NCBI GenBank assembly: GCA_016192525.1
Contig: JACPTZ010000091.1
Coordinates: 62,001-126,000 of the forward strand
Length of the DNA stretch: 64,000 bases
Direction of reading: 5' to 3'
From: Planctomycetota bacterium
GTDB lineage: Bacteria > Planctomycetota > MHYJ01 > JACPTZ01
Shown: piece after piece, positions 6,850-47,262 of the stretch
How positions within the stretch are numbered: position 1 is the first letter of the stretch
How the letters are laid out: the number at the start of each line of letters is the position of its first letter
The notes under the pieces: generated by a model
Seen by the model: only the letters and a program-made list of their open reading frames with translations
Databases searched by the model: none
Told to the model about the DNA's origin: nothing
Position numbers and translations under genes: made by a program

Positions 6850-8424
6850 TTAGCCGCGGAGCACCTTCGCCGCCTCGGCGATGGCGCGCAACTTCCCCTC
6901 CGCGATCTCCGAGGAGGAAACGGGATTGTCGGCGAAGGTGGCGAAGCCGCAGTCGGTGTTGAGAAGGACCCGATTGCGGCCGAAGAGGTCGATCGCGCGA
7001 CGGCCGCGGGCGGCGATCTCCTCCACCGACTCGATCTCCGGACGCTTCTGGTTCACGACGCCGACCCCGATGCGGCGGTCGTCAGGCAACTCGCGCAAGA
7101 CCTCCATCTCCCCCGCCCGCGGGGTGCAGAGTTCGAGGAAGCACGTCCCCACGCGGACCTGCTTCAGCAGATCGAGGAGCGGCCGGTAGTCGCCGGTCAG
7201 GGCGGCGCTCTCGTCCGGGGTCCAGTTCCCGCGGCAGATGTGGACCGCGGTGCGCGCGGGCGGCGAGTCCCCCACCACGCCGTTCAGGAGGTCGCGGGCG
7301 AAGTCCAGTTCGCGGGCCGTGTCCCCCTTCGCGCTCAACGCCCCGCACATGAACGACCGCTGCGTCCGCGACCCCGAGTGCACCACCTCGGTCAGTACCG
7401 GCTCGTCGAACTGCACGAGGGCGGCGCCGGCGGCGAGCAGGTGATGGAGTTCCTCGCGCAGAACGCGGACGATGTCCTCCGCCAGACGCTCCCGCGACGC
7501 GTAGGCGCGATCCGAGATGCACTCCATCCACATGATCCTGCTGAGGAGGTACGGGCCCGGCAGCGCGATCTTCACGGGACGATCGGTGAGGCGGCGCACG
7601 AACTCCAGTTCGTGAACGGCGATGGCTCGCGAGCGCCCGAGGGGACCGAAGACCGCCGGGTGGCGCACGCCTCCGGCGGGGACATCGAGCGATCGGAGTT
7701 CCTTTTCAAACTCTTCCGGGTGATCGACGAGCGGCAGAAGGTCGGTGAGCGGGATGAGCATGCAATTGTCGAGGCGGCCCCCGACGAAGTTGGCGTAGGA
7801 GTCTCGACGCTGCTCTCCGTCGGTGACCACGTCCGCCCCGGCGCGGATCTGCGCCTGGACGGCGAGACGGACCGCGTCCTCCCCGGTGGCCGCAAACTCC
7901 CTCTCGCCGAGGCGTCCTTCGAGATGTTCGTGGATGGCCTGCAGCATCCAGCGCGGCCGCGGCCACGAACCGATTCCCGTCACGGAGAGGGGCGCGATCG
8001 GCGGCACGGGCGCGGGGGGGGGAAGGATGGCGGGAATGGAGACGGGGACCACACGAAAGGGAGAGGCCCGGCCCCCGCCCTTCGTTGCGCCTTCCTCCGC
8101 GCCCTGCGGGCGCTTCGGAAGGCTACTCGGAGCTGCGGGGCGCTCGGCGAGAGACCCCTTGCAGACCAGGTAGATGCGCTGCGCGCCCTGCTTCGTCCAC
8201 GAGACCAGTTCGTTCCCGGTGAGGCGGCACCATGCGGGGAGGTCCTCCTCGACGGAGATCTCGGTGGAGCGGATTTCAAGCAGGCCGCCACGAGGGAGCG
8301 GATCGATGTGCTGCCGGATCAGGAGGAGCAGGCCGTTCCCGCAGTCGAGGTCCCCGCCGTCGAAGGAAACATCAGGCGTCAGAAGGTGCCGGTCCGCAGA
8401 CGGAATCTCGGGGTGGTTGGACAT
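6850..8424 (-). CDS. TusA-like domain fused to core MetE (methionine synthase-like) protein
   Basis: A 524-residue protein. Residues about 15-95 form a TusA-fold domain (GGDLDCGNGLLLLI, EDLPAWCRLTGNELVS, IYLVCKG). They closely match the TusA domain encoded upstream at 9098-9685. After a linker carrying repeat copy B, about 155-522 matches the cobalamin-independent methionine synthase C-terminal core: TGIGSWPRP, AGADVVTDGEQRR, VQFDEP, the zinc-ligand-like VHICRGNW and LLNTDCGFAT. The large MetE N-terminal domain is absent, as in 'core MetE' enzymes, so the methyl donor may not be polyglutamyl folate. The ATG lies only 7 bases from the 3' end of a tRNA gene and has no Shine-Dalgarno site. A role in methionine synthesis or sulfur transfer is inferred. 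Confidence 0.8.
   Translation of the reverse strand: MSNHPEIPSADRHLLTPDVSFDGGDLDCGNGLLLLIRQHIDPLPRGGLLEIRSTEISVEEDLPAWCRLTGNELVSWTKQGAQRIYLVCKGSLAERPAAPSSLPKRPQGAEEGATKGGGRASPFRVVPVSIPAILPPPAPVPPIAPLSVTGIGSWPRPRWMLQAIHEHLEGRLGEREFAATGEDAVRLAVQAQIRAGADVVTDGEQRRDSYANFVGGRLDNCMLIPLTDLLPLVDHPEEFEKELRSLDVPAGGVRHPAVFGPLGRSRAIAVHELEFVRRLTDRPVKIALPGPYLLSRIMWMECISDRAYASRERLAEDIVRVLREELHHLLAAGAALVQFDEPVLTEVVHSGSRTQRSFMCGALSAKGDTARELDFARDLLNGVVGDSPPARTAVHICRGNWTPDESAALTGDYRPLLDLLKQVRVGTCFLELCTPRAGEMEVLRELPDDRRIGVGVVNQKRPEIESVEEIAARGRRAIDLFGRNRVLLNTDCGFATFADNPVSSSEIAEGKLRAIAEAAKVLRG
8078..8139 (-). repeat. In-frame palindromic element, copy B
   Basis: On the minus strand it reads GCAGCTCCGAGTAGCC, a hairpin with core GCCCGCAGGGC, then CGCAACGAAGGG. 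It encodes AAPSSLPKRPQGAEEG in the linker between the TusA and MetE domains. It differs from copy A mainly by paired changes in the stem. Confidence 0.7.
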
Positions 8425-8431
8425 GTGGAGA

Positions 8432-8525
8432 AGGCCGGCCTGGGAATCGAACCCAGCAACAACGGGGGTTGCCCGCCGTCCGACGGGTTTGCAGTCCGCG
8501 GGGAGCCCAGCTCCCTACACCGGCC
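8432..8525 (-). tRNA. tRNASec-like tRNA with GCA (Cys) anticodon and long variable arm
   Basis: A 94-nt cloverleaf on the minus strand. The acceptor is 7 bp (GGCCGGT with GCCGGCC), and the discriminator is U73 at 8432 with no encoded CCA. The D-stem is 5-6 bp (GGGAGC/GCTCCC) with a 3-nt loop. The anticodon loop is CTGCAAA (GCA at nt 34-36), with an A31-C39 mismatch. The variable region is 26 nt (about 8457-8482) and can pair over 7 bp with one bulge. The T arm is CTGGG-TTCGATT-CCCAG. Ordinary tRNACys has a short variable loop. Long-arm tRNAs with a Cys anticodon are known as tRNASec-like tRNACys (tRNAReC). GCA and U73 are CysRS identity elements. It precedes the TusA-MetE gene by 7 bases and follows dsrE by about 207 bases. 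Confidence 0.75.
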
Positions 8526-9097: not shown

Positions 9098-9685
9098 TCA
9101 GTCCTCCTTCCGTCGAATGAGATAGACGGGGTGATTCGCCGAGACCAGCGCGTGCCCCGTCAGCCCGCACCACGCGGGCAAATCTTCAGGCGCCCCGGGA
9201 TCGCGCGCCGTGACCCTCAGGACCTCCCCGGGCTTCATCGCCCGGAGCCTGAGGCGCAGTTCGAGGACGAGGTCTCCGCAACCCATGTCGCCGGCATCCC
9301 AGTCTCCTTCGGCGCCCCGCCGCCCTTCGGCCTTCGACTCGGGACGGGCGGAATCGGGGACCTCGCAGCCAGAGCTCACGTCGGTCCCATCATTCATCTC
9401 GCACCCCCCCTCCCGCGCCGCAGTCCACTCCCAGGCGGCGTTGTAGCACTCCTGGTGGCGGATGTAGGCGACGATGTGGCGGCTCAGTCCCGGAAGATCG
9501 CGGCCGAGCCCCCTCGCGAGGCAGGCCGGGCAGCGCGGTTCGTCCTTGAACCCGAGCACGATGCTGAAGAGAACACGGTGCCCGCAGAGCGGCCCGCCGC
9601 AGCCGACGCACGGCGTCGCGCGCAGTCGATCCAGATCCGCGATCAGGGTGGCGGCCCGCACAATCCGATTCGGGGGGGGGATCAT
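9098..9685 (-). CDS. Zinc-finger plus TusA-like sulfurtransferase domain protein
   Basis: A 195-residue protein. About residues 26-60 carry a Cys-rich zinc-binding module (CVGCGGPLCGH ... CPACL). A second segment contains HQECYNAAWEWTAA. The C-terminal 75 residues are a TusA-like domain: WDAGDMGCGDLVLELRLRL, PGAPEDLPAWCGLTGHALVS, VYLIRRKE. The usual CPxP of TusA is replaced by CGDL, as in a known TusA-like subfamily. The start overlaps the YedE stop (ATGA). Nine consecutive C bases follow the ATG (ATGATCCCCCCCCC), a slippage-prone tract that could shift the frame. A role in sulfur or selenium delivery is inferred from the neighbours. Confidence 0.75.
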   Translation of the reverse strand: MIPPPNRIVRAATLIADLDRLRATPCVGCGGPLCGHRVLFSIVLGFKDEPRCPACLARGLGRDLPGLSRHIVAYIRHQECYNAAWEWTAAREGGCEMNDGTDVSSGCEVPDSARPESKAEGRRGAEGDWDAGDMGCGDLVLELRLRLRAMKPGEVLRVTARDPGAPEDLPAWCGLTGHALVSANHPVYLIRRKED

Positions 9686-10764
9686 GTCGCGACGGGCTCC
9701 GTGGGGACCGGCTCCCCCGCGCTCCGCGCGAAGAGGCCGACGACGAGGCAGAACACTATCCCGGCGACGACGGCCACCCGCCCGGCGGCGCTGGGACCCG
9801 CGGGCGTGCTCGCGAGGCCGAGGGTGTGGGCCAACGCCCCACCCGCGAGCATCCCGATGAGCACGCATCCGGCGTCGGAGTCCCCCTCGCCTGAGAGGAT
9901 CATCTGACGGACCGGACACCCTCCCGCCATCGAACCCGCCAGCCCCACCAGCAGCATCGCCAGAGTGTTCCAGAGCGCATCGGTGTGCGCGATCGGCTGA
10001 CCCTCGAAGCCGGGTTTGAACGTGCCGAGGATCGCCGACCCCGCGGCGTAGGAGAGAATCAGAGTCGCTCCCGGCAGCGCGGCCGGCAAGTCGCGGCTGA
10101 AGACGGCGTGGCGTACGAACGCGAGGGTGCAGAACCGCGCCCGTTGCAGGAGGACCCCTGCGACGAAGGCCGCCCCGAGCGACACCCACCACGGCGCATG
10201 CTGAGCCCCCGGGCCGGACTCGCTCGCCGAGACTCCGGGGAGCGGAACCAGGAGTGCGGCCAGAAGGCCCAGCGCCATCGCGGGAATCAGAAGCCCCAGT
10301 ACGGGGGACAGCGGGGCCGACCGCCCCGGCGTGAACCCGCGGCGCATGAGGGTCAGGGCGAATCCGATCCCGACCGCCAGTCCACCGAGGCCCAGCAAGC
10401 CGTTTGCGTCGCCGCCCCCAAGCCGCTGCAGCATCCGAAACGGGCACCCCAGGAAGACGAGGGCCCCGATCGAGACCCAGATCCCGAGCAGGACCTTCAA
10501 CAGCGGGGCTCCGCCCCCCCGCGGGTGAAACTCCCGGGCGAACAGGGCCGAGGCCAGAGCGCCGAGAATCACCCCCGCGATCTCCGGGCGCAGGTACTTC
10601 ACGGGGGCCGCCTGATGGAGACCCAAGGCCCCGGCCGTGTCCCGCAGGAAGCAGGCCCCGCAGAGTCCCATGTTCGGCGGGTTCCCCTGCCAGACCAGCA
10701 CGCCCATGAGCACCCCCACGAGCGCCCCGGCGACCGCCGGAAGCAGGAGATCTCTCTGGGTCAA
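9682..10764 (-). CDS. YedE/YeeE-family transporter (selenium- or thiosulfate-related)
   Basis: A 360-residue polytopic membrane protein with about ten TM segments. It carries the signature motifs of the YedE branch linked to selenium metabolism: GNPPNMGLCGACFLRD near residue 28, YLRPEIAGVILGA, ALVFLGCPFRMLQRLGGGD, ARFCTLAFVRH, QPIAHTDALWNTL and GGCPVRQMILSGEGDSD. Conserved Cys residues lie in the membrane core (C34, C37 and GCP twice), as in YeeE, which passes thiosulfate along a Cys path. TTG at 10764 is the likely start, with GGGAG 6 bases upstream. The gene overlaps the TusA-like gene. Whether the substrate is a selenium or a sulfur compound cannot be told from sequence. Confidence 0.85.
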   Translation of the reverse strand: MTQRDLLLPAVAGALVGVLMGVLVWQGNPPNMGLCGACFLRDTAGALGLHQAAPVKYLRPEIAGVILGALASALFAREFHPRGGGAPLLKVLLGIWVSIGALVFLGCPFRMLQRLGGGDANGLLGLGGLAVGIGFALTLMRRGFTPGRSAPLSPVLGLLIPAMALGLLAALLVPLPGVSASESGPGAQHAPWWVSLGAAFVAGVLLQRARFCTLAFVRHAVFSRDLPAALPGATLILSYAAGSAILGTFKPGFEGQPIAHTDALWNTLAMLLVGLAGSMAGGCPVRQMILSGEGDSDAGCVLIGMLAGGALAHTLGLASTPAGPSAAGRVAVVAGIVFCLVVGLFARSAGEPVPTEPVAT

Positions 10765-16434: not shown

Positions 16435-17832
16435 ATGGGACTCCGCATCAACTCGAACGCCGGCGCTCTCGGCGCGCTTCGCGCCATCCAGCAGAACACG
16501 CTCGGGCTCGCCCGCCCCCTCGAACGGCTCGCGACAGGACTCCAGATCAACCGCGCCGCCGACAACCCCGCCGGCCTCGTCCTCTCGCAACTCCTCCTCG
16601 CCCAACTGTCCGGCACGCAGCAGGCGATCGAAAACACGCAGCTCGACGCCAACGTGCTGAATGTCGCCGAGGCGGGCGCCGCGGAGATCAGCGACCGGCT
16701 CGTCTCGCTCCGCGCGGATGTGATCGCCGGTCTCAACACGGCGGTCGCCGGACCCGAGGTCCAGGCCGCCCTCCAGCAGTCGATCGACTCCAACGTCCAG
16801 GCGATCCAGCGCATCGCCGACACCACCCGGTTCACCTCCACCGGCCTCCTCAACGGGCAGGCGGGATTCACGGTCACCGGCGCCGGGGCGCCGATCGCCG
16901 ACGTGCGCGTCTCGGGCGCCAATCTCGCCGGCGGCCCGCTCGACGTGGACGCGGTCGTCACGGCCGCCGCCACGCAGGCCACGGCCGGGGGAACACTCAA
17001 CGCCGGCGGCCAGGTGGGCGCCGCGACGATCCGAATCCAGGGCGAACTCGGGGCGGCCGATCTCACCCTCGCCGGCGGCGAGACCCAGGCCCAGGTGATT
17101 TCCGCGATCAACGCGCTCTCGGCCCAGACCGGCGTCCAGGCCACAGCGGGCGGGGTCGTCGAGAGCACCGACGTCGGCTCCGCCTCCCGCGTGTCGATCA
17201 CCAACATCACGGGCAGCCTCACCGGCATCACGGAAGGCACCACCTTCGGCACCGACATCCAGGGGACTCTCGCCGGCCAGCAGGCGGGCGGGGACCGGAA
17301 CACGCTCACCACCACCGGCCCGACGTTCACCGGCGCAGTGGAGTTCAGCGCCGGGACAGGACCGGGCACCACGACCTTCACGGTGGCAGGCGGCGGGCTC
17401 GGGTTTCAGGTCGGGCCGAGCGCGAACTCTGACTTCCTGCGGGTGGGGATCGAGGGGCTCCAGCCCTCGAACATCGGCGGCACGGGGGGCAGCACGCTCT
17501 CCTCGATCGTCTCCGGGGGCGCCAACGCCTTGACGTCAAACCCGCAGCAGGCGCTTTCGATCATCGACCGCGCCATCACGGACGTGGCCGGGATCCGGGC
17601 CCAGATCGGATCGACGATCTCGAACGTCCTCGAACCGCAGGCGAACTCGCTGGCCGTCGCGGCGGAGAACCTCCTGGCGGCCACTTCGACCATCCGCGAC
17701 GCGAACTTCGCGGAGCAGGTCTCGGAGCAGAGCCGACGGCAGATCCTGCTGCAGGGGTCGATCTTCGCCCTTCGGCAGAACAACCTCTCGCAGGGGAGTG
17801 TGCTCCGGCTGCTCGGGCCGCAGGCCGGCTAG
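16435..17832 (+). CDS. Flagellin
   Basis: A 465-residue protein. The N-terminal D0/D1 region MGLRINSNAGALGALRAIQQ ... LERLATGLQINRAADNPAGL is the conserved flagellin helix. The C-terminal region has ATSTIRDANFAEQVSEQSRR and ILLQGSIFALRQNNLSQGSV, close to the usual terminal helix ending in LL. The middle is a Gly/Thr/Ala-rich variable domain with hook-IN-like segments (GAATIRIQGELGAADLTLAGG). ATG 16435 has GAGAGGGGA upstream. It would be exported by the flagellar type III system and polymerise into the filament. No other flagellar genes are nearby, so it is an orphan flagellin locus. A 74-codon gene follows. Confidence 0.93.
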   Translation: MGLRINSNAGALGALRAIQQNTLGLARPLERLATGLQINRAADNPAGLVLSQLLLAQLSGTQQAIENTQLDANVLNVAEAGAAEISDRLVSLRADVIAGLNTAVAGPEVQAALQQSIDSNVQAIQRIADTTRFTSTGLLNGQAGFTVTGAGAPIADVRVSGANLAGGPLDVDAVVTAAATQATAGGTLNAGGQVGAATIRIQGELGAADLTLAGGETQAQVISAINALSAQTGVQATAGGVVESTDVGSASRVSITNITGSLTGITEGTTFGTDIQGTLAGQQAGGDRNTLTTTGPTFTGAVEFSAGTGPGTTTFTVAGGGLGFQVGPSANSDFLRVGIEGLQPSNIGGTGGSTLSSIVSGGANALTSNPQQALSIIDRAITDVAGIRAQIGSTISNVLEPQANSLAVAAENLLAATSTIRDANFAEQVSEQSRRQILLQGSIFALRQNNLSQGSVLRLLGPQAG

Positions 17833-38830: not shown

Positions 38831-40567
38831 ATGCCCCGAAGAGCCCTTCTCACGATCTTCCTGCTGCTCGTCTCCGGCGAATGGGCCGCAGCCCAGGAGC
38901 GGTCCCGGTCGCGCATCGGAAAGCCGATGCCGGACGTGGCCCTCCGCGACACCCTGGGCCGCACGATCCGCATGTCCGAGTACAAGGGCTCCACCCTCGT
39001 CATTCTCGGCGCGACCACGTGGTGAGGCTCCTGCCAGGAGTCGGCGTCCCGGGTCGGGACGCTCACCGCGGCGGCCGCCGGCAAGAATGTCTACTTCCTC
39101 CACCTCGTCGGCGGTGAGCCGGTTGAGGCCGCGCGGCAGTTTCAGCGACACTACCGGCTGAATTACCCCGTGCTGGTCGATGCCAACGACGTCTGGCGGC
39201 AGACCCTCCGCCTGGAGGGGATATCGTGGACCCTCGTGGTCGACGCCGAGGGGATCATCCGCTGGCACTCGGCCCGCGAACTCACGAACGCGGAGGAACT
39301 GGAGACGCTGGGCGTTCTGCTGGAGGGTCAGGCGAAGCGGTTCCCCGGCGGGGAGGCCCAGCGGGCGGGCTTCACCCAGTGGGGAATCCGCTACTCCACG
39401 GCGCAGGCGGAGGTGCGCGCGCCCGTCGGGGAGTGGGAACCGTCGCTCGCCCTCTTCGGAAGCGACCGATTCGCCCTCGTCACCCTCCGGGCGGGCGACG
39501 AGGGATGGCAGATCGCCACCGCCCGGAGCCGGCTGAAGACCGGTCGGGTGGAGAGCACAGTGGAGATCTGCCCCGGATCGGCCGCGAACCCGCTGGTCCG
39601 GAGGATCGGGACCGACGCCATGTGGGTGGTCTGGGGCGACCAGCGCGAGACGGCCGGGGTGACGGCGGCGACGATCGGCGGAGTCTCGACCCGAATCGAG
39701 GGAGACGACGCCAGCGCTCCGATGCGGACCGCCTCGGCGGCCGGCGACGTCTTCCCCTCCTCCCTCGCCACGGACGCGAGGGGTCGGCTCTGGCTGGCCA
39801 CGACCGAGTGGCAGCCCTGGCCGCGGGCCTCGCGCGATCGCGAGATCTTCGTCCGGATCTGCACCTCCTCCGGCTGGTCGGCGCCGATCCAGGTGAGCCC
39901 GACCGGCGTCCCGGACTATGAAGACCACACCGACCCGGCCCTCTGCCCCGACGGGGAGGGGAACATGTGGGTGGCCTGGTCGTGGGACTATCACGGGACC
40001 CTGAAGGAGGAGGGGAAGATCGCGGAAGAGCCGACGATCTTCGGCCGGCTGGTCTCGGCCGAGGGGAAACTGGGGAGGATCATGTGCATCGGTTCGAAGG
40101 GGACGGGCGAGATGACGCGCTCCTTCGCCCCGGCGGTCGCCCCGCTCGGCGGCGGGAAGGTCGCGGCGGTGTGGATCGAGTCCTGTCTCTTCGAAAACAA
40201 GGTCATCGCGCTGAGCATCCGCGCGACGCGCTTCACCACCGAGGGAGCCGAGGACGCGGTGACGCTCGCCTCCTTCCCCGCGACCAAGCCCGAGTACCCC
40301 GGGGCGCCCCGGCTCTTCCCGGGCGAGGGCGGGCCGTTCGTCGTCTACCCGGTGACCGGGTCGGACGGTGTGAGCCGCCTCCACCGCCACCTCTTCACGG
40401 AGGAGGCGGTCTCAGACGCGGTCACGATCGACGACCCGTTCCTCGGCGACTGGTCCGGCGCGGTGGACGAGGACGGCTCGCTCTGGGTGGCGGCGGTGCG
40501 GACCCCCGCCGGCGCAAGCGACCCGATGGCGGGGAAGGTGGGGCTGAAGAGGCATGTGCTGAAGTGA
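38831..40567 (+). CDS. Predicted selenoprotein: UxxC thioredoxin-fold domain plus propeller-like domain
   Basis: 578 residues if TGA 39023-39025 is read as Sec65. A signal peptide (RRALLTIFLLLVSGEWAAAQ) supports ATG 38831. Residues about 29-150 form a TlpA/peroxiredoxin-like fold: IGKPMPDVALRDTLGRTIRM, SEYKGSTLVILGATTW, then Sec-Gly-Ser-Cys in place of CxxC, then YPVLVDANDVWRQTLRLEG and SWTLVVDAEGIIRW with the cis-Pro region replaced by S-W. About 180-575 has repeated WVVWGDQRE, LWLATTEWQP, MWVAWSWDYH and SLWVAAVRTP units, resembling a BNR-type propeller. The frame stays open for 513 codons after the TGA. A bacterial SECIS-like hairpin follows the TGA. Cys insertion at the UGA is an alternative. 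No Shine-Dalgarno is evident. Confidence 0.82.
39044..39062 (+). promoter_or_regulatory. Bacterial SECIS-like stem-loop
   Basis: GCGTCCC (39044-39050) pairs perfectly with GGGACGC (39056-39062) around the loop GGGTC (39051-39055). The loop starts 25 nt after the TGA and begins with GG. Both fit the bacterial SECIS pattern: a short apical loop with G in its first two positions, 16-37 nt from UGA. It would be bound by SelB. Confidence 0.75.
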
Positions 40568-46621: not shown

Positions 46622-47164
46622 ATGTCGAATCGCCGGATGTTCTGGGTGGTCCCGGTCCTCCTCCTCGGGGCGGCCGTCGTCGTGGCGGGGGAGACCGCCG
46701 AACTCGGGGGGGTCGTCGCGGACCTGAAGTGGAAGTCGCTCGACGGCAAGGAGGTCAGTCTGGGCGCGCTCCGGAAGACGGACAAGGAGGCGGGGAAGGT
46801 CGTGGTCGTGCACTTCTGGTCGTACAAGTGTCCGAGCGGAAAGAGGATCCTCGACGAGGTGAAGGCGATGGCGGAGGCCTGCGAGAAGAACGGAATGGCC
46901 TTCATCGGCGTCTGCGCCTACGGCGAGAGCGAGGCGGAGCTGAAGGCCTTCGCGGAGAAGAACGGAATCAGCTATACCCTCTGTTGCGACGAGGGCAAGA
47001 CGGGAACGAACACTCTCGGGGCGAAGGTGGTGACGGCGACCTACGTCCTCGACAGGGAGGGGAAGCTGGTCTATCGAGGCGGCTGGGCGAAGGCGATGGA
47101 CGCGGCGGGCGAGGCGAACGAGGGGAAGGAGGTCTCGGTCAAGGAGACGAAGCCGGCCGGCTGA
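46622..47164 (+). CDS. Exported redoxin / AhpC-TSA-like protein
   Basis: 180 residues with signal peptide (FWVVPVLLLGAAVVVAGE). Thioredoxin-fold features: LDGKEVSLGALRKTD, VVVHFWSYKCPSGKRILDEV with a single Cys at the position of the peroxidatic or CxxC N-terminal Cys, VCAYGESEAELKAFAEKNGI, and VVTATYVLDREGKLVYRG with the T-A-T before the conserved strand. The second Cys of CxxC is absent (CPSG), so it is more like a peroxiredoxin-type protein than a disulfide reductase. GGAGAG precedes the ATG. Confidence 0.8.
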   Translation: MSNRRMFWVVPVLLLGAAVVVAGETAELGGVVADLKWKSLDGKEVSLGALRKTDKEAGKVVVVHFWSYKCPSGKRILDEVKAMAEACEKNGMAFIGVCAYGESEAELKAFAEKNGISYTLCCDEGKTGTNTLGAKVVTATYVLDREGKLVYRGGWAKAMDAAGEANEGKEVSVKETKPAG

Positions 47165-47262
47165 AAGATCAAGGCGTAGGCGCCCCGGTGGGGGTGGACA
47201 TCGGTGACGTATCGACGTTCTGCGGCGACGGCATGGCGCAGAGTCCGTTGAAACCTCAGGGC

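Follow-up and report, generated by a model that had tools for sequence, protein, structure and literature searches.

A predicted planctomycete selenoprotein that joins a UxxC thioredoxin-like domain to a putative beta-propeller

Among proteins of solved structure, the nearest in sequence to the one described here is ResA (PDB 4nmu and 1st9; E 8.4e-12, profile positions 21-146), which we take to be an exported protein whose thioredoxin fold has a CxxC motif, with Cys and not selenocysteine (Sec, U), in a chain of about 140-150 residues in which the cis-proline is present. Thioredoxin-like selenoproteins with a UxxC motif are established predictions (PMC13188914, PMC1088965). Those of the TlpA/Prx-like kind have been tabulated under cd02966 (thiol-disulfide isomerase-like), PF00578 (Prx-like thiol:disulfide oxidoreductase) and PF08534 (redoxin) (PMC13188914). 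For the planctomycete strains P1 and P2, Sec-insertion genes were predicted together with selenoproteins, the latter from in-frame UGA codons and SECIS elements, and those named are formate and formylmethanofuran dehydrogenases (PMC4807772). The name Planctomycetota has no occurrence in the available parts of two general reviews (PMC13188914, PMC9312934). A thioredoxin-like domain and a beta-propeller are found in one protein in human NHLRC2 (PMC6107167).

Here, we describe a gene from a 64,000-nucleotide stretch of planctomycete DNA (the window) that we predict, with a probability of roughly 0.93, to be a selenoprotein gene, in which UGA 39023-39025 would be decoded as Sec within an exported, TlpA/ResA-like UxxC enzyme that also carries a propeller. 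As in the UxxC proteins described in the available part of PMC13188914, there is a thioredoxin fold with a predicted attacking Sec, a Cys three residues on, a bacterial SECIS and homologues with Cys. Compared by description, the window protein differs from them in its propeller-like C-terminus of ~400 residues, its replaced cis-proline and the fact that no full-length Cys version was met in the searched genomes. No NCBIfam family was matched above its cut-off. NF041054 (ResA-like WAxxUGC motif-containing protein) has a U in its motif, as the window protein has, but the match reaches 21.9 bits, far under the cut-off of 300, and the motifs differ (UGC versus UGxC). The features of the gene, all on the + strand, are as follows.

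38831-40567, +: predicted selenoprotein gene with a signal-like N-terminus, a UxxC thioredoxin-fold domain and a C-terminal beta domain; stop TGA at 40565-40567
38831-38900, +: putative hydrophobic signal peptide at the N-terminus, as read by eye
39023-39025, +: in-frame TGA, predicted to be read as selenocysteine, residue 65 (W-U-G-S-C); the same codon is TGA in genomes G020 (locus L020) and G313 (L126), and Cys or TGA in 43/43 aligned loci
39043-39063, +: bacterial SECIS-like hairpin whose loop, GGGTC (39051-39055), begins 25 nt downstream of the TGA; within the four bSECIS constraints quoted in the available part of PMC13188914
39338-40564, +: C-terminal all-beta domain, predicted beta-propeller (AlphaFold2 model, pLDDT 72, pTM 0.79; Foldseek matches to propeller lectins and CylK)

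The reading frame and its domains

The frame is as the preliminary description had given it: from ATG 38831, 64 codons lead to TGA 39023-39025 (TTW-TGA-GSC), followed by 513 open codons up to TGA 40565-40567, which makes a protein of 578 residues when the first TGA is translated. Codon bias is alike on either side of this TGA (GC3 0.89 upstream and 0.92 downstream; codon score 0.285 versus 0.304). Across the six frames, 20 of the 1374 TGA stops in the window have at least 513 open codons after them, and the long open frame is, taken alone, not decisive evidence for a Sec codon. Since TGA also terminates the selenoprotein gene itself, as it does 2 of the 10 other genes checked, a reassigned genetic code is ruled out. 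A further TGA, flanked by open frame of gene-like codon bias for 140 codons on one side and 413 on the other, lies at 17408 on the - strand.

An AhpC-TSA/Redoxin domain occupies about residues 29-150 (PF00578, 1.4e-12; PF08534, 4.3e-11). The PF00578 match covers residues 29-145 in one unbroken stretch, bearing out the earlier claim that thioredoxin-fold sequence continues past the TGA. In the relative from G313, AhpC-TSA scores 28.5 bits, above the cut-off of 26, and Redoxin 23.2 bits, below its cut-off of 26.6. Together with the W-C/U-x-x-C motif, the domain is that by which a TlpA/ResA-like oxidoreductase is recognized. In the thioredoxin fold, a cis-proline stands opposite the active site; in the window protein and its two full-length relatives it is replaced by Ser, Ala and Thr, and most other aligned rows have Pro, with a few other exceptions (e.g. 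L031, L034 and L130). Judged from these alignments, the missing cis-proline sets the full-length Sec subfamily apart, and because it is lacking, we file the protein as TlpA-like and not as TlpA.

The C-terminal domain was modeled with AlphaFold2 from a three-sequence alignment, and this was the sole model searched with Foldseek, as a full-length model was discarded (pLDDT 44.5). Its matches include CylK and Photorhabdus lectins, which we take to be beta-propellers, with TM-scores of 0.42-0.66 (by either length) and identities of 10-14%; they support a propeller fold for the predicted structure and name no ligand. No NHL protein is among the 50 Foldseek matches listed. NHLRC2, presumably not a selenoprotein, nevertheless resembles the window protein, as far as the available account goes, in joining a thioredoxin-like domain to a propeller.

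Conservation of the TGA codon and of a SECIS-like hairpin

Full-length relatives were found in two other genomes, both from Planctomycetota: G020, of the same class and another family, and G313, of the same phylum. In a three-way alignment, they are 35% (G020) and 31% (G313) identical to the window protein, the G313 copy beginning near a contig edge, so that it may lack the first residues; L079, whose DNA is identical to that of L020, was left out of the homologue count. Neither homologue ends at the TGA; an end there would have spoken against the preliminary description. Both (2/2), from other families, carry TGA at the identical codon, giving 3/3 full-length homologues in three families of Planctomycetota when the window is included, with the downstream frame well preserved in all three. 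The active-site motifs read W-U-G-S-C in the window, W-U-G-D-C in G020 and W-U-G-G-C in G313, with the second Cys kept. It is this conservation at the same codon that, in our view, settles the question of the Sec codon.

Searches retained 49 thioredoxin-like loci, one search having listed more matches than the loci read from it; after alignment and removal of six duplicates, 43 (window included) remained. Some rows are distant, and single columns may be misaligned. The residue-65 column contains Cys in 36/43 and TGA in 7/43 distinct loci, in line with the earlier expectation of Cys or Sec at this position, and the resolving-Cys column is Cys in 38/43. For the 36 Cys rows, similarity to the window protein is confined to the thioredoxin domain, and among them L032 and L039 each have a TGA a few residues ahead of the column. 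A full-length Cys version was not found among 23 class genomes, among 392 phylum genomes (at most three candidates scored per genome, E 1e-12) or by scanning genome contigs with two short peptide patterns, one of which has Cys in place of Sec, so that close Cys forms were detectable. Other thioredoxin-like loci have TGA at the first active-site position: L029 (G056, WUAGC), L038 (G025, TUGPC), L042 (G014, WUGPC) and L046 (G040, GUPAC). From these four loci, predicted UxxC selenoproteins look widespread in Planctomycetota.

The hairpin had been described as a 7-bp perfect stem sitting 25 nt downstream. Its seven Watson-Crick pairs and the loop GGGTC stand, with an additional outer G-U pair, while the 25 nt turn out to be the distance from the TGA to the loop and not to the stem. 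The loops are GGGUC, AGGUU and AGGAU in the window, G020 and G313, with spacings to the TGA of 25, 25 and 24 nt when counted as 5-nt loops; a folding program closes one extra pair inside the window GGGTC loop and draws 3-nt loops in all three. The corresponding energies are -15.6, -14.7 and -11.3 kcal/mol. Bacterial SECIS elements are described as having a loop of 3-9 nt, a stem of 4-16 bp, a G in the first two loop positions, a distance of 16-37 nt from the UGA and an energy of at most -7.5 kcal/mol (PMC13188914, available part), and the hairpins of 3/3 genes lie within all of these limits. The three stems differ in sequence yet pair, and between the window and G020, two stem pairs are changed on both sides.

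Rule-conforming hairpins (<= -7.5 kcal/mol) follow 183 of the 1376 TGA triplets in the window, 15 of them as strong as that of the gene. The isolated 21-nt hairpin is exceptional (z -3.56; 0/200 shuffles as good), whereas its 50-nt context folds unexceptionally (z -1.49; 19/200 shuffles as good). By itself, the hairpin is weak evidence for Sec decoding; because of these background counts, neither it nor the open frame was accepted as stand-alone proof.

Selenium-related genes in the window and the genome

Several other features of the window touch on selenium.

8432-8525, -: tRNA-Sec-shaped tRNA with Cys anticodon GCA, a 6-bp D stem and a long variable arm
9101-9430, -: TusA domain (PF01206), just downstream of the YedE gene (joint stretch 9098-10764)
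9682-10764, -: gene for a putative selenium transporter of the YedE family (TIGR04112, 390 bits, cut-off 200)
46622-47179, +: AhpC/TSA redoxin, second selenoprotein candidate, with TGA 47162-47164 in the C-terminal G-U-K-I-K (KPAG-U-KIKA)

The redoxin candidate, which like the propeller and the loss of the cis-proline lay beyond what the preliminary description could see, has a rule-conforming hairpin 3′ of its TGA. Of 30 loci examined, window included, 11 have GU and seven have GC in the C-terminal motif, and the other 12 do not reach or do not align at it; among the GU loci, L088 and L089 have differing text after the TGA, where it may be an ordinary stop. Relatives in G013 (56% identity), G027 (39%) and G036 (31%) each contain a single TGA within the matched region. 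Elsewhere in the window genome, a further redoxin match with one in-frame TGA lies at G000:C185:2183-2512 (E 4.9e-4).

The preliminary description had pointed to selA, selB, selD and selC as the genes to look for, and part of this set is present: the 4.18-Mb assembly of the window genome (G000), which is 82% complete, contains SelA (571.9 bits, cut-off 267.9) and SelB. The SelB gene is cut by the contig start, covers model positions 92-581 of 581 and has SelB as its best family, at 203.9 bits, below the full-length cut-off of 242.25. A second 'SelB' match, of 176 bits on contig C130, is by its sequence (read by eye) EF-Tu, beside genes for tRNA-Thr, -Tyr, -Gly and -Thr. A search of this 82%-complete assembly gave no SelD: the candidate matches were rejected, the best being ThiL and the other, by eye, a PurM-like frame. 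Nor was a tRNA-Sec with anticodon UCA found in it, be it with the Rfam model (150 of 787 first-look candidates scored), with a pattern that recovered 30/30 positive controls, or with a phylum-specific model (150 of 2883 candidates scored), for which the best match, at 51.7 bits, is the GCA tRNA of the window. The phylum-specific model was built from the genes of 28 relatives; two control genomes, whose genes are in the model, score 103-110 bits. In the 30 strong tRNA-Sec matches read from relatives, the anticodon is UCA in 30/30.

The GCA tRNA was rejected as a tRNA-Sec, as its anticodon is no UGA reader. Its tRNA-Sec score is also not distinctive: with Rfam, the GCA tRNA scores 44.3 bits and tRNA-Ser and tRNA-Leu genes 49.5 and 43.2, and with our own model, it scores 51.7 versus 48.4 for tRNA-Leu. 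Base 73 is T, CCA is not encoded, and an ordinary tRNA-Cys gene is located elsewhere in the genome. It resembles the selC-like tRNA-Cys of PMC7609411, for which the available part gives other phyla and an 8/4 arm, whereas the window tRNA folds 7/5. Seven bases after it starts a gene at 6850-8424 (-) whose TusA-like match is weak (22.3 bits, under the cut-off) and is followed by methionine-synthase-like matches, all below cut-off.

SelA is above its cut-off in 42 of 59 genomes. Among the matches listed, 34 of these 42 also have a tRNA-Sec match of at least 58 bits, a threshold of our choosing, and eight lack a clear one (G000, G001, G015, G016, G018, G020, G022 and G051), including the relative G020; G042 is the sole genome with such a match and no SelA. 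Seven of the eight are at most about 82% complete. Within the SelA genomes of at most about that completeness, 7/11 are without tRNA-Sec, a larger share than their incompleteness by itself would lead one to expect. We read the absent tRNA-Sec as missing assembly, and regard it as the weak point of the Sec case.

Competing readings and a proposed mechanism

The missing tRNA, along with the odd class II tRNA-Cys in the window, is what would speak for a selenium-free readthrough, with UGA read as another amino acid by a Cys, Trp or near-cognate tRNA. We consider this very improbable: SelA and SelB are encoded, a hairpin of SECIS geometry is conserved in all three genes, and standard pairing rules do not allow the GCA anticodon of the class II tRNA-Cys to read UGA. 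There is very little chance that the TGA instead terminates a short peptide ahead of a separate gene. A mechanical open reading frame does run from GTG 39170 to 40567 (465 aa), but a start at this GTG would leave the thioredoxin fold without its active-site half, the PF00578 match crosses both TGA and GTG, and columns between the two are invariant in all three proteins (e.g. N86, V87, F89, F104 and H107-L110). That the residue-65 column is Cys in most thioredoxin-like relatives (36/43) could also fit a Cys gene in which the TGA arose recently by nonsense mutation or is a sequencing error, a chance we put at next to nil: the same TGA in two other genomes, from other families, rules it out, and the downstream frame is well kept in all three genes.

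The steps that we infer under Sec decoding, from the codon to export, redox direction and the role of the propeller, would run as follows. SelB bound to the hairpin just 3′ of the UGA would deliver Sec-tRNA, making residue 65 a selenocysteine, while selenium shortage would leave no more than a stub of 64 residues. In the mature protein, a selenol would then be the attacking residue of a TlpA/ResA-like thioredoxin domain (W-U-G-x-C). This selenol may attack a disulfide or another oxidized sulfur species, with Cys68 resolving the intermediate, and the propeller could present a ligand, substrate or partner to the selenol site. Our best guess for the activity, favored somewhat over a Sec-based ligand or metal sensor, is a thiol-disulfide reductase outside the cytoplasm. 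A different and rather unlikely possibility is a subfamily of selenoenzymes that has no Cys form at all, in which the cis-proline was lost and the propeller gained, and where Sec would be required for a different job and not as a faster Cys, for instance soft-metal or selenium/sulfur-ligand binding outside the cytoplasm.

With Sec decoding as the preferred reading, what is already known are UxxC selenoproteins as a class, and what would be new is the branch fused to a propeller. We found no report of a thioredoxin-propeller selenoprotein fusion in the literature covered, in which the supplementary candidate list of PMC4807772 was outside the scope. A relative of the window protein may be among the full candidates of P1 and P2, which belong to the same phylum, and the word 'propeller' is absent from the available part of PMC13188914. 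Standard annotation would split the gene into a peptide of 64 residues and a headless propeller. The finding would extend the known UxxC selenoproteins by a domain fusion, from a phylum with earlier reported selenoproteins (PMC4807772). As a family that is so far Sec-only and free of the cis-proline, it may offer a natural test of what selenium does beyond sulfur.
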